Shown here one piece after another: positions 4,104 through 15,037 of a stretch of DNA of 64,000 nucleotides. The DNA comes from Bacteroidota bacterium. GTDB taxonomy: Bacteria > Bacteroidota > Bacteroidia > B-17B0 > Aurantibacillaceae. Made by a program: the position numbers and the translations under genes. Below the pieces are notes generated by a model that worked only from the letters and a program-made list of their open reading frames with translations, did no database searches and was not told where the DNA came from. Position 1 is the first letter of the stretch. Each line of letters starts with the position of its first letter. The DNA is taken from assembly GCA_030684395.1 (NCBI GenBank), contig JAUXTT010000004.1, forward strand, positions 1 to 64,000, given 5' to 3'.

Positions 4104-6488
4104 CTACTTATCTTTTCTAATAATGTTTGTGGGGCTTTTACTTCTCTTCTTTTTAAATTTATTTCTTGGCGCTTCGTTATTAAATTTATCCATCTTCTGG
4201 TATGCCCTGATCAATGATTGAGGTAATTCACCTTTATAAGTTATTCTGTAATATGAAAAACCGTTAAAGGGAATATCATTTTTACTATTGTAAATTTTCA
4301 AACGTTTATTGGAGCCATTTTCTTTGAAATAGAACCTGAAGGAACTCACTCTTTGTTTTATCAATTGATCAAACCTTTTATTAACCAAAGCATCGCCAAC
4401 AAATAACCTGCATTTTTCCTGAGTGGTGAAGACAAGGTGGGTATTGCAGTGTTTATTAAGGTATTTAATAAATAATGAATCTTTTACCGACATTTTTACA
4501 ATGAACATGGAGTCGTCTTCAGTAAATGACTTTAAGGTTTTACTGTTATGAATTAAAAAATATTTTTTCTTGGCTTCGTAAAACAAAATGTGTTCTTTTT
4601 CTTTAGTCGTGTATTGTATTGGGTTAACGGTTATGGATGCTTCCGGGTTTTCTTCCAGAAAATTAGCCATTTTGCGTGCAAATTTTTTCTGTGACTTTGT
4701 TAGATAGCCCTGACGCATTTCCCATTTTACGCTCAATGATTTTTCTATTTCATTTTCGTTCCCTCTTACTTTGGCAGAACTGTAAGTCATAGGAGGTTTG
4801 ATAAGTATGTTTTTGAGCAGATCAATAATTGCATCCTTTAAGTGGAATTTTGGGTTTTTCAAATCCCCGGTGATTGGGATCTCATAATCAATTACATTAC
4901 CGCGTTCTCTTACAAAGGCCATCATTAAAGGAACAGGTACCCATTTTGTATCTTTGTTCTTTACACGATCACCTACCCGAGGATCAATGATCACGAGGTG
5001 ATTGCGACTTTGTATATTCCCGTTTCTGACTTTCCATGTTCCCTTCACTTCCATCGTTCCTCTGTCGAGAGGAAAAGAAGTATAGGTGAGCAGGTATGGA
5101 TTAAACAGGGTTAATGGAACTTTATCAATATGATATTGCAGGTCAAAATCTGAACTATCACGCGGATTTATACTAAGATCAAGTACTGCATTTCCGTATG
5201 GTTTAATTCCTGAGCGGAAAGTCACGTTCAACATTTCTTTTCTTTTATCTATGGAATCTGCTTCCATAAAAAAAGGGTACACTCCTGCTGAAAATTTTTC
5301 ACTCAACGAGTATTCCTCATATTGAAAATTGGCCTTGTTAATCTCAAGTCGGTTTACCTGATAATAGCTCCGGAAAAAATTCTTGGCAAGCTTTTCTACG
5401 TAATTAGCGATTTCCAGAATCAGGTTGAAACGTGCTGTATTCCCTGATACGTTAATGACGTTTCCTCCACCTTTACCAAAGATGGTTTGAAAATTATCTA
5501 AGTTATCATAATGCTCATAAAGAAGAAAAGGTTCATTAAGCAATACAGTATCAAAAATGTATTTATTGTTTTTGGGACTTAGCTCAATTACATCTAATGA
5601 GAATTTATTGAAAGCTGCATAATCTTCTCCCACCTTTTTCCCAAAATGAAAATCGTTGATGTTGACTTTTCCATTCATGTTCAGATCACCGGCATCTCTA
5701 AAGCTGCCAATTGCATTGATCTTTGCATCCAGGTTGGCAGTAAATTTACCGTAGTTGATCATGTCTTTCAGGTATTGCTCTATCATCTGCAGGTCGTATT
5801 TCTTAATGTCGGCCGTAAGTTTGTAATCGAGATTGTCCACATTGATAGTGAAAGCTCCGTTCATACTTCCTTTACCAATGCCCGCTAAAAAAGCATATTT
5901 AAAAGCAATAGAATCAGCACCCCAGCCTATTTTGGTACTGGTGATATTTACCTTTTTTACGAAGTAATTTATGGGAGTCATATTTTCGTGGTAATAAAAG
6001 TCACCTTCATTTATCTTTAAACTACTTATGATAAAATGAATGGAAGGTCCGCTGGCCCCTGCTCCGTTTGAAGAAAATTTCTCTATCAGATCTCCAAAAT
6101 TAAGAGCACGCTTATCTCCTTTCTGTGCTATCATCCATCTTGGTTGTTCTAAAACAAGCTCGCCAATATCAATCGTTTTTGAGAAAAGTTTCATAAGGGC
6201 GATGTTTGCACTTATGCCATCAGCTGTTAGGGCCAGGCTATCGCTGTTCAATTCATAAATTTTTGGATTGCTTAAATAAATATATCCGGTAAATGGGTTT
6301 ACATAAGCCCAATCGATCTTTACCTCTCTGCCGCTTAATTCTACATCGTACTTTTCGAGCAGGTACTTTGCAAGCGGTGAAATGAACAAGAAAACGAACG
6401 TAAAAATGCCTGTAATAGCTAATGCAACCACAAAAAATATTTTTGACAGCTTAAGCCTTGTTCCCTTAAGAGTTATTTTCGATTTCAT
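4104..6488 (-). CDS. AsmA-like protein, DUF748 family
   Basis: A 794-residue protein with one N-terminal transmembrane helix (about 15-40) and a long beta-rich body. The start of the body (LSGREVKIDWAYVNPFTGYI) and the C-terminal region around EASITVNPIQYTTKEKEHIL look like the DUF748/AsmA family. AsmA-like proteins (TamB, YhdP and relatives) are thought to form hydrophobic bridges that move lipids between the inner and outer membranes. It is the last gene of the MCE transport operon, and its ATG overlaps the stop of the MCE gene by 4 bp. That coupling suggests it works with the transporter as the periplasm-spanning part. The family call is fairly secure. The coupling to lipid transport is inferred from context. 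Confidence 0.82.
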   Translation of the reverse strand: MKSKITLKGTRLKLSKIFFVVALAITGIFTFVFLFISPLAKYLLEKYDVELSGREVKIDWAYVNPFTGYIYLSNPKIYELNSDSLALTADGISANIALMKLFSKTIDIGELVLEQPRWMIAQKGDKRALNFGDLIEKFSSNGAGASGPSIHFIISSLKINEGDFYYHENMTPINYFVKKVNITSTKIGWGADSIAFKYAFLAGIGKGSMNGAFTINVDNLDYKLTADIKKYDLQMIEQYLKDMINYGKFTANLDAKINAIGSFRDAGDLNMNGKVNINDFHFGKKVGEDYAAFNKFSLDVIELSPKNNKYIFDTVLLNEPFLLYEHYDNLDNFQTIFGKGGGNVINVSGNTARFNLILEIANYVEKLAKNFFRSYYQVNRLEINKANFQYEEYSLSEKFSAGVYPFFMEADSIDKRKEMLNVTFRSGIKPYGNAVLDLSINPRDSSDFDLQYHIDKVPLTLFNPYLLTYTSFPLDRGTMEVKGTWKVRNGNIQSRNHLVIIDPRVGDRVKNKDTKWVPVPLMMAFVRERGNVIDYEIPITGDLKNPKFHLKDAIIDLLKNILIKPPMTYSSAKVRGNENEIEKSLSVKWEMRQGYLTKSQKKFARKMANFLEENPEASITVNPIQYTTKEKEHILFYEAKKKYFLIHNSKTLKSFTEDDSMFIVKMSVKDSLFIKYLNKHCNTHLVFTTQEKCRLFVGDALVNKRFDQLIKQRVSSFRFYFKENGSNKRLKIYNSKNDIPFNGFSYYRITYKGELPQSLIRAYQKMDKFNNEAPRNKFKKKRSKSPTNIIRKDK

Positions 6489-7174
6489 TTTTTCTTTTTA
6501 TCCTCACCTTTTTTCTTCTTTTTGAAGAAACCTCTTAATAAAACATTTTTGCTTGCAGCGTTCATGTTTTGTTTAAAGCCGCCGGCGCCTTGCTTAATAT
6601 TAATGATCGTTTCCTCCACATGTTCTGCAAAGGTGCTATCCATTAAGAGTTTACCAATGGTCCCTCTTCCGGCTCTGATCTCGCCGCTGATAGCAGAAAT
6701 ATCGCCGGTTATAAGCGCTGAATGATCTGCGGTTACTTTTAATTTTGCCAGTATGTCATCTATACTGATCGGTTGAATTGTTTCTATAAAATCTCCATCA
6801 ACGAGTTGTTTTTTACCGGGAGTACCTGGGGCGATCACCACGATCTTATTTCCCATTAGCCCGTCTGAACCAACTATTGCCTTTGCATTTTTTTTCATGA
6901 ATTTTCGGGAGCCTTCGTCAATGATCATATCTACTCGCACAGTTGAATCAGTAATCTGCTCTATATTATCAATGATGCCTACATTGATTCCGGAGAATCT
7001 GACATTGTTGCCAACCTGCAGTCCGCTGATATCCTTGAACACTCCACTAATTAAAAATGTATTGTTGAAGAGTTGCCCTTTTTCTCCGATAAAATAAATT
7101 CCGGCAATCAGTAGCACAATACTTGATGTAACAAAAATCCCCAATTTGATTTTATTTCCTGTTGTCTTTTTCAT
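6485..7174 (-). CDS. mlaD: MCE-domain protein, MlaD-like
   Basis: A 229-residue substrate-binding subunit of an MCE/Mla-type phospholipid transporter. One N-terminal transmembrane helix (about 9-29) anchors it in the inner membrane. The MCE domain spans about 35-115 (VFKDISGLQVGNNVRFSGIN, then GLMGNKIVVIAPG). A helical tail with GRGTIGKLL follows, and the C-terminus is very Lys-rich (FFKKKKKGEDKKKK). It sits between the ATPase gene (10 bp gap) and the DUF748 gene (4 bp overlap). MlaD family members form hexameric rings. The substrate here is unknown. Confidence 0.9.
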   Translation of the reverse strand: MKKTTGNKIKLGIFVTSSIVLLIAGIYFIGEKGQLFNNTFLISGVFKDISGLQVGNNVRFSGINVGIIDNIEQITDSTVRVDMIIDEGSRKFMKKNAKAIVGSDGLMGNKIVVIAPGTPGKKQLVDGDFIETIQPISIDDILAKLKVTADHSALITGDISAISGEIRAGRGTIGKLLMDSTFAEHVEETIINIKQGAGGFKQNMNAASKNVLLRGFFKKKKKGEDKKKK

Positions 7175-7184
7175 TATTTTTTGA

Positions 7185-7919
7185 CTATTTAAAAAATGAA
7201 CTTACCCACTCATCACCTGATTCGGATAGTTCTTTATAGGTTCCTTCGATAAAAGCTTTTCCATCTTTAAGAATGATCATTCTGTTGGCAGTGATACGCG
7301 CACACTCTATGTCATGTGTAATGATAATGGAAGCAGTATTGTATTTTTTCTGTACATCCAGGATCAATCTGCTGATCTCTTTTGATGTAATCGGATCCAG
7401 ACCTGTTGTAGGCTCATCATATAAAATGAGTTCCGGTTTTAGCATTAAGGCTCGCGCAAGTCCAACACGTTTTTTCATTCCTCCGGAAAGTTCGGAAGGC
7501 ATTTTATCTATTGCCTCTTCCAGCCCTACATTTTGCAAAGCCTCAAGAACAAGTTGGTCTATTTCTTCTTTGGATTTTGTTTTTGAACCCCGAAGATGAA
7601 ACTCAAGATTCTCTTTTACCGTTTTAGAGTCATACAAAGCTGCACTTTGAAACAGGAAACCTACTTTTTTTCTTAGTATGTTTAGCGCTTCTCTTTCCAA
7701 ATCCTGAACGTTTTCGCCCAGCAAAAAAATTTCTCCTTCATCAGGTTCAATTAAGCCTATCAGACATTTGATGAGTACTGACTTTCCACTTCCAGATTTT
7801 CCCAATACGACAAGATTCTCTCCTTCACGTATTTTAAAATTCATATCAAGGAGCACCTTATTGCTTCCAAATGATTTGTTTAAATGAGCCACTTCAGCTT
7901 TGATGGTTTCTGCTTTCAT
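7185..7919 (-). CDS. mlaF: ABC transporter ATPase, MlaF-like
   Basis: A 244-residue ABC ATPase that powers the MCE lipid transporter. Walker A is GKSGSGKS (about 38-45), the signature is LSGGMKKR (about 144), Walker B is LILYDEPTTGLDP (about 165-177), and the switch His is in IIITHD. The LSGGMKKRVGLARAL form is typical of the Mla/MCE ATPase group. The gene overlaps the permease gene by 4 bp, indicating translational coupling. Confidence 0.93.
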   Translation of the reverse strand: MKAETIKAEVAHLNKSFGSNKVLLDMNFKIREGENLVVLGKSGSGKSVLIKCLIGLIEPDEGEIFLLGENVQDLEREALNILRKKVGFLFQSAALYDSKTVKENLEFHLRGSKTKSKEEIDQLVLEALQNVGLEEAIDKMPSELSGGMKKRVGLARALMLKPELILYDEPTTGLDPITSKEISRLILDVQKKYNTASIIITHDIECARITANRMIILKDGKAFIEGTYKELSESGDEWVSSFFK

Positions 7920-8731
7920 TTGCTAAAAAGACTAGTGATTTGAACAGCTATCATGTCCATAATAAATATGGTAAGTGAACCCATTACTACGGCAGAATTT
8001 GCAGATAGGCCAACTCCTTCAGTTCCTTTGTTCGAATTATATCCTTTATAACAACTTATTATTCCAACAGCAAAACCAAAGAAAACCGTTTTAATAGTAG
8101 CAGGAAAAACATCTGCGAAAGTTAGTTTTTCAAATACCTTTAAAAAGAATAGATGAAAACTAACATCGCCTTTCAAATTCACACCTATATAAGATCCATA
8201 CAAAGCAATGGCATCTGCTGCTATAACCAATATGGGCAACATCAAAGTGGCAGCCATAACTCTCGTTACTACTATATATTTGAAGGGGTTTATTCCGGCA
8301 ACTTCCATTGCATCTATCTGTTCGGTAACTTTCATGGAAGCTAATTCGGCTCCTATACCTGAGCCCACTTTTCCTGCGAATATTAAAGCGGTGATCACCG
8401 GCCCTATTTCTCTTACGATAGAAACAGCAACCATTGCCGGCAACCATGACTCAGCTCCAAATGTCGCAAGTGTTGGTCTCGATTGAATCGTTAATACAAG
8501 TCCCATAATGAAACCTGTAGTTGCTACAAGTGGAAATGATTTATAGCCAACGAGATAAGCCTGCTTAATAAATTCAGCAAACTCATAAGGAGGTTTAACA
8601 AGTTCCTTAAAAAACCGACCGCAGAACATAGTTACAAGTGCAGCTTCCTCAAAAAAACTCTTTGCTTTTTTTAGGTAAGAGTTTTCTGAAAACTCCACTT
8701 GCTTTACTTTTGATTTTATTTCTGCCGGCAT
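7916..8731 (-). CDS. mlaE: MCE transporter permease, MlaE-like
   Basis: A 271-residue integral membrane permease of the MlaE family, with about five membrane segments. Family-typical stretches are the central REIGPVITALIFAGKVGSGI, the following ASMKVTEQIDAMEVAGINP, and the C-terminal GTEGVGLSANSAVVMG. It starts the mlaE-mlaF-mlaD-DUF748 cluster and lies only 14 bp downstream of dps on the same strand, so dps readthrough is possible. No MlaA, MlaB or MlaC gene is present in the window. Confidence 0.92.
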   Translation of the reverse strand: MPAEIKSKVKQVEFSENSYLKKAKSFFEEAALVTMFCGRFFKELVKPPYEFAEFIKQAYLVGYKSFPLVATTGFIMGLVLTIQSRPTLATFGAESWLPAMVAVSIVREIGPVITALIFAGKVGSGIGAELASMKVTEQIDAMEVAGINPFKYIVVTRVMAATLMLPILVIAADAIALYGSYIGVNLKGDVSFHLFFLKVFEKLTFADVFPATIKTVFFGFAVGIISCYKGYNSNKGTEGVGLSANSAVVMGSLTIFIMDMIAVQITSLFSK

Positions 8732-8745
8732 TTAGGGAATAGCTA

Positions 8746-9219
8746 TTAGTTTAAGTATCTTCTTAAGATCCACGCAATTGTTTCATGTTGTTCCATTAAA
8801 CCAGTGAGGAAATCAATCGTGCCCGCATCTTTGTTTTTTACGGAACTTTCTTCAATAAAAGTTCGTAATTGCATTGTCACTATTTCATGGTCGTTTAACA
8901 GTTCTGTGATAGTGTCTTTTGTAGAAGTGTATTTCCCCGCACTTTCTTTTATGGTTGCATGTTTCAAAAACTCTTGCATGGTACCGATCGTTTTTTCTCC
9001 CAGTTTACCAATACGCTCCGCGACCTCATCAATAGATGCTTCAAGCATATTGTACTGTCCTTCATATAGCTTATGTAGTTCCATGAAGCTTGATCCTGTG
9101 ACATTCCAATGTGCTTTACGGGTTTTGGTATATAGTACTACTTCATTTGATAAGACCAATGTGAGCATTGAAGCACTTGACTTTAAGCTCTTTTCTGAGA
9201 TTCCAATGTTTACTTTCAT
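8746..9219 (-). CDS. dps: Dps family ferritin-like protein
   Basis: A 157-residue Dps/ferritin-like protein. Dps assembles into dodecamers that oxidise and store iron and protect DNA. The ferroxidase motifs are visible: His in TRKAHWNVTG, and the acidic ASIDEVAERIGKLG stretch. The open frame extends 18 codons further upstream to 9273, but the ATG at 9217-9219 (MKVNIGISEKS) fits the family N-terminus, so I use it. It lies directly upstream of the Mla-like operon on the same strand. Confidence 0.92.
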   Translation of the reverse strand: MKVNIGISEKSLKSSASMLTLVLSNEVVLYTKTRKAHWNVTGSSFMELHKLYEGQYNMLEASIDEVAERIGKLGEKTIGTMQEFLKHATIKESAGKYTSTKDTITELLNDHEIVTMQLRTFIEESSVKNKDAGTIDFLTGLMEQHETIAWILRRYLN

Positions 9220-10732: not shown

Positions 10733-10996
10733 ATGCCGGCAATAATTAAACATAAGCAATCCTTCGCTCAAACAGTTGAAGAAGAAAAAAACGAACTTGC
10801 TATTAAACTTCTTTCCTTAAAAGACCAATCTATTGTACATACCATTAACTTAATTGTTGATGAACTTACCTCATCTATAAACAAAAGACCAACGAAAGCA
10901 CAATACAATAGAGAAATTGATGCGGCAGTAAAAAGAGTAAGAGGCGGAAAGTCTATTTCTAATGATGATGTAATGAAAGAAATGGAAAAGTGGTAA
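10733..10996 (+). CDS. antitoxin-like protein without an adjacent toxin
   Basis: An 87-residue protein whose C-terminal half (KAQYNREIDAAVKRVRGGKS, ending EMEKW) matches the pattern of small Bacteroidota antitoxins paired with RelE/ParE toxins: QYNxEIDxAxxRIxxGxxxxxxxVxxxxxxW. It resembles the antitoxin at 11313-11567, which has KQYNKELKASEKQIAEGKFT and ends SEKW. No toxin follows on this strand. It converges on the toxin gene at 11011, with 14 bp between the stops. It is either an orphan antitoxin or one that also controls the neighbouring toxin. Confidence 0.7.
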   Translation: MPAIIKHKQSFAQTVEEEKNELAIKLLSLKDQSIVHTINLIVDELTSSINKRPTKAQYNREIDAAVKRVRGGKSISNDDVMKEMEKW

Positions 10997-11010: not shown

Positions 11011-11319
11011 TTAATATTCCAAAGGCTCTCTACTGGTATGTCTTATCCTTAAAATCATAATTTGTGAGCTTGTAATCCGATATACAATTCTATAACTATA
11101 AACAATGTAAGCACGGTAGGTTCCGTCATTATTAACTTTCAGGGTGTCAGCTTTGTAGATTTCTTTACCCGTTTCCAGCACTTTAGTGGAGCTGAGTATT
11201 TTGTTCTTTACTTGTTTGGCGGCGGGCTCGGATTGCCTTTTGATATAGGAATGGACGTCTTTCAACTCTTGTTTTGCCATGTCTGACCAAACAACCTCAT
11301 ACCTCTTTTTCTTTACCAT
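11011..11319 (-). CDS. RelE/ParE family toxin
   Basis: A 102-residue toxin of the RelE/ParE fold. Family signs are the N-terminal VVWSDMAKQELKDVHSYIKR helix pattern, the central YRAYIVYSYRIVYRI beta-strands, and the C-terminal RIRHTSREP. ParE members poison gyrase and RelE members cleave mRNA on ribosomes; the sequence seen here leans towards ParE. The start overlaps the antitoxin gene by 7 bp, the usual coupling of a type II module with the antitoxin first. Confidence 0.88.
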   Translation of the reverse strand: MVKKKRYEVVWSDMAKQELKDVHSYIKRQSEPAAKQVKNKILSSTKVLETGKEIYKADTLKVNNDGTYRAYIVYSYRIVYRITSSQIMILRIRHTSREPLEY

Positions 11320-11567
11320 TTCTCAGATTCTTTTTCCAGATCCGCTTGGGTGGTAAATTTTCCTTCAGCGATCTGTTTTTCAGAGGCTTTTAATTCTTTA
11401 TTGTATTGTTTAACACTAACACGCTGATCTTTGGTTTCAACGTGCAATAGGCTCTTTGCCATTTGCAACAATAACTCTTGTTGTGGAAGGCTCAACAATG
11501 GAAGATAATTATCTAGTTGTTTTTTTATGGCTGTTGCTGTCATTTGATAACTGTTACTATAAGACAT
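11313..11567 (-). CDS. antitoxin of the RelE/ParE module
   Basis: An 84-residue protein encoded directly upstream of, and overlapping, the toxin gene. It has a helical N-terminal half (LDNYLPLLSLPQQELLLQMA) and a C-terminal KQYNKELKASEKQIAEGKFT segment ending in SEKW, the usual neutralising-tail pattern of these antitoxins. No clear DNA-binding motif can be assigned by eye. Confidence 0.82.
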   Translation of the reverse strand: MSYSNSYQMTATAIKKQLDNYLPLLSLPQQELLLQMAKSLLHVETKDQRVSVKQYNKELKASEKQIAEGKFTTQADLEKESEKW

Positions 11568-12258: not shown

Positions 12259-13704
12259 TTATATTTTTATAATGGATCTGGTATCCGTAAGATTCATTGG
12301 TTTTACATTAAAACGAGTATTCAAGCGATATTCTTTAAAATCACACCATGCCATAAAGTGAACGTAAGTTTTGTTGCATACGAAGTTTTTAGTGCCTAAG
12401 CTCTTTCCTGCGATAATTATCAAGACGCTAACTTTTCCTTTGTAAAATTGTACTTTCATGATAACAGGTTCTTGTTTGTAATCCAAGTAACTACTCTGTT
12501 CACCATCTATAAACTCAGCATTATATGAGGCCAATGTAAGGTGATTGCTATCCTGCCAGTTCCCATCGGTAGGCATGTTACCCGCACATATATGAATGTC
12601 TGTTGTATCTAGATTTGCATGTCTATCTGTTGAGCTTTTGTCAATAATAAAATCTTTCTCATTACTTAAAACGAATCCAAATCTCCAAAACTCTGTGTTT
12701 TGCGGAGTGATTGTAATAGTTATTTCAATATTATTGGCATTAAAGTAATATGGAAATACCTCATGATTGTTTTTTGTTGATTCTTTTCCAATGAAGTCAT
12801 AATTTAGATCTAATAAGGCTAGTTTCTTATAGAAATTTGTTATACCGGCTTCAACAGTTATCGGCTCCATTATAATAGCCGGTATAAAATTTATACGTTG
12901 CAAGTATGAGGAAGGAATCTCAAGTTGTTTTGCAAATTGATGAAATTTGAACGTTACACTTTCAAATTGATCTAGAGTAAGTTGGGAATAAGAAATAAGT
13001 GTAATTTGAGAGGTAGTATTGTTTGCAAATTCATCTGCTTTTTTTAAATTTTCATAGAGTTGAAATATATGTTCTCTTTCTGGGTAATAACTCTTTTCTC
13101 TATGGCATTTTACCTCAAACAGAACATAACTTCCTGGGTATATGGGATGTTCGCCCAAAAGATCAACGTAAAAATCCTTTTTTCTATCCCTATTTAATCG
13201 AAAGAAATCTGATATTTTGTAATTCGTGAATCCCAAGAGGAGGGAATTAATTTCGGCAACTACATTAAATTTAGCAGCTTCAAGTGTCCTTTGTATGTAT
13301 ACTGCATTTTCATCATCTTGAGAAATTTTCGGGTCAATATTTATTGCCTCAGCAACCTCAGTATTCTCGATCCAGTAAGGATCATAAATATTATGTTTTT
13401 TGAAAACACTTAGAATTCCAAGTATATCTAATGAATTTGTATTTGGACCTTCGGATAACTTCGAACTACTAGCTAGAATTCTTTTTATTATACTTTTAAA
13501 AGCGTGAAAATTATTTCTAAAATTCATTGCGGTCTCGAAGTTGAAGTCAGGTTTTTTACTCGTTTTGGAAGTTTCGGTATTAGTGGTCTGTTCATCCGTG
13601 AAAGATGTAAGATGAGCCTTTTCAAGTTCAGACACCAAGTCTAATACACAATCCTTTAGTGCAGGTAAAACTATCTTCCTTATTTTTTTCTCGGAAATCC
13701 CCAT
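12259..13704 (-). CDS. PD-(D/E)XK nuclease-like protein, candidate defence effector
   Basis: A 481-residue protein of no family I can name. Residues about 150-240 show the order expected of a PD-(D/E)XK fold: a helix with Glu151 (VVAEINSLLL), a strand with Asp181 (KDFYVDLLGEH), a strand with Glu197-Val-Lys199 (YVLFEVKCHRE), a helix with Gln215 (HIFQLYENL), then a strand (SQITLISYS). The N-terminus is helical (1-30), followed by a Ser/Thr/Lys-rich linker. The C-terminal part (about 340-481) looks all-beta (TEFWRFGFVLSNEKDF and later strands) and could be a recognition or binding domain. The gene starts 1 bp after the stop of the ATPase gene, so the two are surely one operon. The nuclease role is inferred from motif order and has not been demonstrated. 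Confidence 0.72.
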   Translation of the reverse strand: MGISEKKIRKIVLPALKDCVLDLVSELEKAHLTSFTDEQTTNTETSKTSKKPDFNFETAMNFRNNFHAFKSIIKRILASSSKLSEGPNTNSLDILGILSVFKKHNIYDPYWIENTEVAEAINIDPKISQDDENAVYIQRTLEAAKFNVVAEINSLLLGFTNYKISDFFRLNRDRKKDFYVDLLGEHPIYPGSYVLFEVKCHREKSYYPEREHIFQLYENLKKADEFANNTTSQITLISYSQLTLDQFESVTFKFHQFAKQLEIPSSYLQRINFIPAIIMEPITVEAGITNFYKKLALLDLNYDFIGKESTKNNHEVFPYYFNANNIEITITITPQNTEFWRFGFVLSNEKDFIIDKSSTDRHANLDTTDIHICAGNMPTDGNWQDSNHLTLASYNAEFIDGEQSSYLDYKQEPVIMKVQFYKGKVSVLIIIAGKSLGTKNFVCNKTYVHFMAWCDFKEYRLNTRFNVKPMNLTDTRSIIKI

Positions 13705-13705
13705 G

Positions 13706-15037
13706 TTATTCTAAGTTTTGAATGTATTCATTTAATTCATCTCTGGTTCTGAGATTAAGTATATCATCTACCTTGTTGAATAGATTGATAACTATATAAT
13801 CTTTTATAGGCTTTGGATGACCGCTGATATTATCGCAGACGATATCAAGTGCATTTAATAATTCGGTATTTGCTGGTCGATTAAACTCTTGCGGGATGTC
13901 AATAAATGCTTTATCATTTTCAAAGTATAGTTCTTCCTTTATAAGATTAAGAAACTTTCTAGGGATTTTCTTGGATTCTAATACAAGCCAATTAACGTAT
14001 TGGTCGTAAGCAATTCGGTTGTCATCGGTTTTAAGAAAATCCTTTGTAATAATGAGCTTTTCGAATAAATTGCGCAGTTCATAACTTGATTTTAAAGGAA
14101 CATGAAATGTTTTAGAGAATAGGGTGCTTAGAATTGGATCTTCTGCTTCATTCACTGAATATAATTCGTAGTAAAGATCTTGGCCTCCAATTACAATAAA
14201 ATTGGCATGTCCAGATAGTAGAGTTGATTTAAACAAATACAGGACATTTTTGGCTTCTTTAATTGGCAATTTATCTAATTCATCAAGAATGAACACTGGT
14301 TTCACGCCAGCATTTTTAAATTCTTTAAGGATTGAAATAAACCGATATTCAGCTATTTCATCATCATAGAGACTTTTCTGAGTTTCTTTAGTTTCCTTTT
14401 TTGACTTATGTTTCTTAATCAAAGTATAGCCGAATTTGATACCTTGACCAATTGTTAGACCAATTGAAGTAATTTGAGCTGCTGTTTTGTAGTTGTTCTC
14501 AGATCCTAAATCTACGGTAGCTAATACTGTTGCAACAAGAGCGATTAGAAAAAATAACGTTCCATCTTTGTAGCTAACTGAAGTAAGTTCTCTCTCTGTT
14601 TCTATACTCTTTGTAGAAGAAAATTCGCGGTCGATTGAGGAAAACGTTTGCTTATTAAGGTTTTCTAATGAATGACCAAGATCTTTTATTGTCGAATTGT
14701 TTTTTGTTTTTAAATTTTCATATCGCTTATTCCCTACGAATTGAAAATAGAATTGTCGAATTAAGCTTCTAATTAGTATTTCATATTTATCATATTTTGC
14801 AATTGGGGCGTGAATAAAGACGAAATTGTCAGTTTTCTCAAGCTCTTCTTCAACCTTTTTAATAAATGAAGTTTTACCAACACCTCTGAAACCTGAAAGA
14901 TAATAGCTACTTTCATTCATTTTTGAAATTAGATTAACAAAGGATTCAACCTCAATGGGGGTAAATGTAAAAAAACTATCGGTGTCCTTTTTATAAGGCG
15001 CATCAGTAATTTTTTTGTAGTCTATTTCAAGTTTCAT
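13706..15037 (-). CDS. P-loop ATPase with inserted membrane segments (KAP/STAND-like)
   Basis: A 443-residue NTPase. Walker A is GFRGVGKTS (49-57) and Walker B is VFILDELDKL (248-257). A sensor-like strand follows (FIVIGGQDLYYEL), then a helical C-terminal region with the DNA-replication/STAND-like KIPRKFLNLI motif. Between Walker A and B lies a hydrophobic insertion, one clear helix at about 160-177 and a second weaker one at about 184-207. Transmembrane insertion at this position is characteristic of KAP-family NTPases, which include the phage-exclusion protein PifA. The neighbour one base downstream is nuclease-like. The ATG at 15035-15037 is the first in frame after a stop. An isolated AAAGGAGG lies about 45 nt upstream, too far to be a normal ribosome site. 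A defence role is inferred. Confidence 0.8.
   Translation of the reverse strand: MKLEIDYKKITDAPYKKDTDSFFTFTPIEVESFVNLISKMNESSYYLSGFRGVGKTSFIKKVEEELEKTDNFVFIHAPIAKYDKYEILIRSLIRQFYFQFVGNKRYENLKTKNNSTIKDLGHSLENLNKQTFSSIDREFSSTKSIETERELTSVSYKDGTLFFLIALVATVLATVDLGSENNYKTAAQITSIGLTIGQGIKFGYTLIKKHKSKKETKETQKSLYDDEIAEYRFISILKEFKNAGVKPVFILDELDKLPIKEAKNVLYLFKSTLLSGHANFIVIGGQDLYYELYSVNEAEDPILSTLFSKTFHVPLKSSYELRNLFEKLIITKDFLKTDDNRIAYDQYVNWLVLESKKIPRKFLNLIKEELYFENDKAFIDIPQEFNRPANTELLNALDIVCDNISGHPKPIKDYIVINLFNKVDDILNLRTRDELNEYIQNLE

Follow-up and report, generated by a model that had tools for sequence, protein, structure and literature searches.

Two protein classes, MCE transporters and AsmA-like bridges, are regarded as the principal movers of phospholipid across the periplasm, and most work treats them separately. 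In the first class, the short MlaD of Proteobacteria is served by the soluble carrier MlaC; in the second, TamB and YhdP have been proposed as anterograde lipid bridges. Here, a co-directional gene unit that brings the two classes together, dps-mlaE-mlaF-mlaD-DUF748, is described from the genome of a Bacteroidota bacterium of the family Aurantibacillaceae (assembly GCA_030684395.1, 4.87 Mb, 98.9% complete). The unit lies in a stretch of 64,000 nucleotides of contig JAUXTT010000004.1 (hereafter the window) and joins an MCE transporter with a shortened MlaD to an AsmA-like protein of 794 amino acids (aa) that belongs to the DUF748 family. We give a probability of about one half to the reading that the unit encodes an additional Mla-type lipid transporter, associated with stress and equipped with a groove-shaped AsmA-like partner of its own in the same pathway.

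The minimal Mla system of Veillonella parvula is encoded by an operon mlaEFD-tolC-tamB without MlaA and MlaC, and the available sections of the source report that loss of tamB partly suppresses an mlaD mutant, from which its authors infer that the two work in opposite directions (PMC10665443). The window resembles this system, as far as those sections describe it, in that MlaEFD occurs without MlaA and MlaC and an AsmA-like gene (there TamB) stands in the same operon. However, the Veillonella MlaD (419 aa) ends in a C-terminal beta-barrel and is itself a proposed bridge, whereas the window MlaD (229 aa, short stalk) contains one MCE domain, has no room for a barrel and is not a long MlaD of the Veillonella type. 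The partners differ as well: TamB seemingly acts in the opposite direction, and the window partner is a DUF748 protein with an OmpA-like end. The Mpc system of Brucella, a chimera of Mla and Pqi (PMC12436622, available sections), likewise has an Mla-type ABC core without MlaC and an alternative periplasmic or outer-membrane partner, but this partner consists of a PqiC-like lipoprotein and a ~250 Å MlaD-like protein and is not AsmA-like.

With the MlaFEDB-MlaC-MlaA system of Escherichia coli the window shares an MlaE-type permease, an MlaF-type ATPase and a single-MCE MlaD; the differences are that no MlaC or MlaA was detected in the source genome, that the equivalog cut-offs were not reached and that dps and DUF748 are part of the unit. 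The model of the DUF748 protein resembles TamB, YhdP, Vps13, ATG2 and BLTP1 in that a membrane helix at the N terminus leads into a groove built of beta-strands, but its body is shorter than the larger TamB and YhdP, and it carries an OmpA-like C-terminal domain in which the peptidoglycan-binding residues are seemingly replaced. The family of each part is already known, and the Negativicutes already provide an operon that combines MCE and AsmA-like genes. Among the matches listed from the open-access literature (judged mostly from titles), none describes DUF748 within an mla operon of Bacteroidota or a linkage of DUF748 to mla, and none ties a short-stalk Bacteroidota MlaD to a DUF748 protein with an OmpA-like end.

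Results

A Co-directional Unit of Five Genes

The five minus-strand genes form one co-directional unit (table 1). The start of mlaF lies on the stop of mlaE in a 4-bp ATGA overlap (7916-7919), the start of DUF748 lies on the stop of mlaD in a second overlap of the same kind (6485-6488), the gap between mlaF and mlaD measures 10 bp, and dps is located 14 bp upstream of mlaE on the same strand. A preliminary description of this stretch had recognized the tight packing of the last four genes, with which coordinates, strand, junctions and Pfam identities all agree; it did not include dps, with which the unit begins (the start was taken as the ATG at 9219; the start of the mechanically called open reading frame is 9273). 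Scans for promoters (11 compared with a shuffle mean of 19.2) and terminators (4 compared with 3.8) gave no excess over shuffled sequences, and the boundaries of the unit therefore rest on gene spacing.

Co-occurrence of DUF748 and Short MlaD

The presence of the two genes was scored in 87 genomes of the order with thresholds of E ≤ 1e-200 for DUF748 and E ≤ 1e-50 for short MlaD, which were set after the gap in the scores had been seen. Both genes are present in 28 genomes, DUF748 only in 5, short MlaD only in 10 and neither in 44 (Fisher P = 1.1e-9). The association was retained among the 62 high-quality genomes (20, 5, 9, and 28 in the same order, P = 2.2e-5) and among the 42 high-quality genomes of at least 3.5 Mb (18, 5, 6, and 13, P = 0.004), and stratification by genus gave a common odds ratio of 43 (P = 2.6e-8). 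A marker of the stress-gene island described below (c16, present in 22 of the 87 genomes) served as a control and showed weaker associations with both MlaD (odds ratio 10.1) and DUF748 (odds ratio 5.6). In marker-free genomes the association of DUF748 with MlaD persisted (14, 4, 6, and 41; odds ratio 24, P = 1.2e-6); in marker-bearing genomes it had the same direction and was not significant (14, 1, 4, and 3; P = 0.077). The 28 genomes with both genes carry them on one contig in 16 cases (in 15 no more than 16 kb apart and always on one strand, and in one at a distance of 393 kb) and on different contigs in 12. Across the phylum, the clade of the 794-aa DUF748 protein was found at E ≤ 1e-20 in 1 out of 247 genomes, the source genome only, which by this route confines the co-occurrence test to the order.

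A second DUF748 subfamily displays the same tie. The protein is 422 aa long (PF05359, E = 5.7e-26) and is encoded by 16 copies in 14 of the 87 genomes (L099:4846-6111, L101, and L226-L235 are loci of this subfamily). Ten of the 16 copies lie within 10 kb of a short-type mlaD on the same strand, and a LEA_2 (WHy-type) gene adjoins 8 of the 16; the order mapped in L099-L101 is DUF748-LEA_2-mlaE-mlaF-mlaD. One locus with the large DUF748 (L117) has the order mlaD-LEA_2-DUF748. When this subfamily was added to the count, after the first co-occurrence test, at least one type of DUF748 was present in 32 out of 38 genomes with short MlaD compared with 5 out of 49 without (P = 1e-12).

Linkage and Gene Neighborhood in Relatives

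Linkage was analyzed in a sample of 80 named loci that hold relatives of the 794-aa DUF748. Among the 43 loci that have 4.5 kb or more of flank in each direction, 8 carry a same-strand mlaD within 4.5 kb, compared with a chance expectation of roughly 0.33 out of 43 that assumes 6 mlaD genes per 3.5 Mb and independent loci, although related genomes are not independent. Within 10 kb, a same-strand mlaD is present in 7 out of 33 loci with 10 kb on both sides, and one more locus has it on the opposite strand. Two gene orders occur. In the window, L114, L119, and L160, DUF748 follows mlaD (about 9 bp further on in L114 and L160, and about 28 bp in L119 as measured on its G058 copy), and in L124, L129, L140, and L178, DUF748 precedes mlaE (gaps of about 5 bp in L178 and about 280-400 bp in the other three). 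The tie between DUF748 and mlaD is recurrent but labile. In two of these loci (L124:12666-18758 and L140:7149-13305), DUF748 is followed by two mlaEFD sets in tandem, of which the first encodes a long MlaD (325-327 aa) and the second a short MlaD (242 aa).

Relatives often carry dps-mlaEFD and DUF748 in a single co-directional island of stress genes, 5-16 kb apart and with other stress genes between them; the island genes include CsbD, YtxH, an AI-2E-family transporter, a response regulator (identified by eye), and OmpA/PD40 proteins. Among 27 mapped loci with short mlaD, 11 (window included) have dps immediately before mlaE and 4 have DUF748 immediately after mlaD, both counts being biased because loci L073-L112 were chosen for holding DUF748 or mlaD. 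The source genome carries its own island on contig C22 (L223), with OmpA/PD40, CsbD, response regulator, YtxH, holin-like, and AI-2E-family genes and without dps-mlaEFD-DUF748, so that the five genes of the window stand together and apart from the island.

Predicted Fold of the DUF748 Protein

The DUF748 protein is laid out as an N-terminal transmembrane helix (residues about 10-46), a body predicted to form a repeating beta-groove (about 55-550) and a C-terminal domain (about 580-755). AlphaFold2 (AF2) models follow the same order of membrane helix, long run of beta-strands and alpha/beta domain, with a mean confidence (predicted local distance difference test, pLDDT) of 81.8 for the full protein, built with 55 natural sequences, and of 84.0 for the body alone with 49 sequences. 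A Foldseek search with the modeled body returned Vps13 as the best match (E = 3.0e-4) and the only one under 1e-3. The comparison with VIA placed LPD-3 (Z 10.0, 407 residues aligned, root-mean-square deviation [rmsd] 12.2), Vps13 (Z 8.9, 187 aligned, rmsd 6.1), apolipoprotein B (Z 8.8), ATG2A (Z 8.4, 185 aligned, rmsd 4.5), and TamB (Z 8.0, 215 aligned, rmsd 8.3) among the top matches, with unrelated barrels from a Z of about 7 down. The predicted fold of the body is that of bridge-like lipid-transfer proteins. The AF2 models contain at most about 27-30 strands, and at 4.8 Å per strand the groove would be roughly 100-140 Å long, which would suit part of the periplasmic span better than the whole. 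The designation AsmA-like in the preliminary description agrees with the DUF748 family, which the available sections of PMC4494059 relate to TamB and AsmA, with the transmembrane helix and with the beta-groove model, whereas the AsmA family itself (PF05170) stays under its cut-off (E = 0.14, 11.3 compared with 29.8 bits).

The modeled C-terminal domain is OmpA/Pal-like (VIA Z 9.9 to Pal 4g4w, 98 aligned, rmsd 2.8). The similarity is also seen in the sequence: an OmpA protein from the source genome matches the DUF748 profile model at 879-925, and alignment of the domain with OmpA domains by hhalign gave a local alignment of 41 columns, while the global alignment failed. OmpA-like domains bind peptidoglycan through the Asp of an HTD motif and the Arg of NxxLSxxRA. 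In the hhalign result the HTD region is set against QYTTK in the DUF748 domain, and the position of the Arg is apparently occupied by the Glu of an invariant EAKK (by eye), so the usual binding residues seem to be replaced. Searches of solved-structure sequences with profiles A4 and A2 (hmmsearch) gave no match at E ≤ 10.

The Mla Core and the Short MlaD

The Mla core consists of an MlaE permease, an MlaF with the ABC motifs (Walker A GKSGSGKS, LSGG, and Walker B LILYDEP) and an MlaD with a single MCE domain, all with Pfam matches above cut-off; the transmembrane helix of MlaD was recognized by eye. MlaE scored 210.8 bits against TIGR00056, below the cut-off of 212.2, and the NCBIfam equivalog cut-offs were missed by MlaD (TIGR04430, 56.4 compared with 135 bits), MlaF (NF008809, 164.6 compared with 441 bits), and MlaE (NF033619, 183 compared with 315 bits). 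The genes are therefore of the MCE/Mla type and not equivalogs of the E. coli Mla genes.

The source genome holds three MCE genes besides the mlaD of the window. Contig C6 carries a second mlaEFD operon with an MlaD of about 320 aa. In an alignment with this long paralog, the short MlaD has retained its N-terminal helix, MCE domain and C-terminal end, and two ~47-residue blocks of the paralog's stalk are missing from it; the long stalk matches the short stalk at several staggered places, and the blocks therefore look like repeats. The available sections of PMC10665443 state that most MlaD proteins outside the Proteobacteria are long (the longer MlaD averaging 374 residues) and that the short, E. 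coli-like MlaD is restricted to the Proteobacteria, which would make the window's MlaD a shortened MlaD in an unexpected phylum. Contig C31 (L225) contains two tandem MCE genes, whose open frames of 326 and 328 aa are separated by about 1 kb, and no mlaE or mlaF match was found inside the 11 kb examined there.

A search of the source genome for MlaC and MlaA gave no match at E ≤ 0.001, and the same searches were positive in E. coli and Caulobacter, which extends the absence first remarked on for the surroundings of the operon to the whole genome. Absence of MlaC and MlaA is usual outside the Proteobacteria (PMC10665443, available sections). It is for this reason weak evidence for a substitute and was dropped as special evidence.

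Other Genes of the Window

The coordinates of the unit and of further genes in the window are collected in table 1.

Table 1. Genes of the dps-mlaEFD-DUF748 unit and other genes of the window
Feature	Coordinates	Strand	Evidence and remarks
dps, Dps/ferritin-like, 157 aa	8746..9219	-	PF00210, E = 3.7e-20; first gene of the unit
mlaE-type permease, 271 aa	7916..8731	-	PF02405, E = 2.3e-71
mlaF-type ABC ATPase, 244 aa	7185..7919	-	PF00005, E = 1.2e-35
mlaD-type MCE protein, 229 aa, short stalk	6485..7174	-	PF02470, E = 1.8e-13
DUF748 protein, 794 aa	4104..6488	-	PF05359, E = 2.4e-57; 195.2 bits, cut-off 50
CheB-CheR-PAS-histidine kinase-receiver fusion, 1299 aa	172-4071		Next downstream of DUF748 and convergent with it
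87-aa gene	10733-10996		Opposite strand to the ParE-type pair; C-terminal end similar (by eye)
ParE-type toxin and probable 84-aa antitoxin	11011-11567		PF05016 (toxin); no Pfam match (antitoxin)
KAP-family NTPase gene paired with a 481-aa gene	12259-15037		NTPase: weak PADLOC match only (PifA, E = 0.0022); 481-aa gene: no Pfam match

Discussion

Linkage and co-occurrence in relatives suggest that MlaEFD and DUF748 work as partners. In such a partnership, MlaE, MlaF, and an MlaD hexamer would move phospholipid at the inner membrane, driven by ATP, and the DUF748 protein, anchored in the inner membrane, would conduct lipid along the periplasm in its hydrophobic groove in place of the soluble MlaC. 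This replacement would be needed all the more because the window MlaD lacks the two stalk repeats. The OmpA-like end may tether the protein to the cell wall layer or to a partner in the outer membrane, and Dps together with the island genes suggests a use under stress or in stationary phase. A narrower version, which we consider rather unlikely and whose probability is contained in that of the broader reading, is a putative hybrid trans-envelope conduit that sets an MCE ring in series with a Vps13-like DUF748 bridge ending in an OmpA-like foot. The short-stalk MlaD would then give lipid to the DUF748 groove, or receive it from there, under stress, and the conduit would serve instead of both MlaC and a long MlaD.

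A number of observations weigh against a partnership. Direct adjacency of DUF748 and mlaD is the minority arrangement and is labile. The conserved linkage on which the preliminary description had made its case depend does recur in relatives, in both gene orders, but it does not extend to a genome of the same genus: in the same-genus relative the two genes are 393 kb apart, and the row nearest to the window on the DUF748 tree (L113), likewise from this genus, is unlinked. On this tree of 74 DUF748 proteins, which leaves out 8 of the 80 loci (incomplete or frame-broken genes) and has 31 rows without a label (short flanks, or linkage only at 3-15 kb), adjacency requires 9 changes, of which at least 6 are forced by well-supported branches, and is weakly clustered (31 out of 500 shuffles were as low); wider labelings gave 10 and 12 changes. 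DUF748 also adjoins long-stalk MlaD, in L117, L147, and the first operon of L124 and L140, so that the tie between the short stalk and DUF748 is not a strict one, and a specificity of the adjacency for short-stalk MlaD was discarded. PF05359 matches are present in 58 out of 118 Bacteroidota genomes, and in none of 29 Bacteroidota loci (L194-L222) does the 1.5-kb flank of the match contain mla genes, a weak negative as most open reading frames exceed this flank. DUF748 is missing from 10 out of 38 genomes with short MlaD and short MlaD from 5 out of 33 genomes with DUF748, which indicates that DUF748 is not an obligate subunit, and 6 of the 38 have neither DUF748 subfamily. Finally, the Z values of the body, at about 8 to 10, are modest and indicate a fold, not a function.

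Imperfect co-occurrence (5 and 10 of the 43 genomes with either gene) fits two separable systems, and the genes of the unit could serve parallel and opposing routes, DUF748 forming its own anterograde bridge and MlaEFD a retrograde pump, co-regulated so as to keep lipid flow in balance but without a common conduit. We regard this as possible, if on balance unlikely. The predicted fold of DUF748 is complete and has its own membrane anchor, and the Veillonella operon, with tamB beside mlaEFD and partial suppression of the mlaD mutant by loss of tamB, argues in the same direction (PMC10665443, available sections). Opposing routes are harder to reconcile with the estimated length of the groove, which seems short for the whole periplasm, and with a strong co-occurrence that concerns one type of MlaD and not MCE genes at large. 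The genes might instead have been gathered by joint induction under stress (with Dps, CsbD, YtxH, the AI-2E-type gene, and others) and share no mechanism. The stress island that houses dps-mlaEFD and DUF748 in relatives, and the higher frequency of dps directly upstream of mlaE than of DUF748 directly downstream of mlaD, would be expected from such joint induction, but the association of DUF748 with MlaD exceeds that of the island marker and persists in marker-free genomes, and the source genome keeps its five genes together, away from the island. Because the second DUF748 subfamily is linked to short mlaEFD in a different neighborhood, this explanation is less likely than opposing routes, and we hold it to be improbable.

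The preliminary description had proposed that the AsmA-like protein is the lipid bridge of this transporter, and had suggested co-occurrence with mlaEFD as a check. The co-occurrence is strong within the order, if imperfect, and together with the predicted bridge-like fold, the two subfamilies near mlaEFD and the missing MlaC and MlaA it is consistent with the proposal, against which stand the minority adjacency, the absence of one or the other gene from some genomes and the small weight of the missing carrier and lipoprotein. MCE and AsmA-like genes, belonging to systems usually treated separately, are indeed joined here, but the Veillonella operon is a precedent, one in which the two seem to be antagonistic according to the available sections of that source. 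In this Bacteroidota genome, a shortened MlaD, no detected MlaC and a beta-groove neighbor come together, a combination that raises the question whether the groove protein replaces the carrier. The co-occurrence data provide a short list of lineages in which it can be asked whether DUF748 replaces MlaC.

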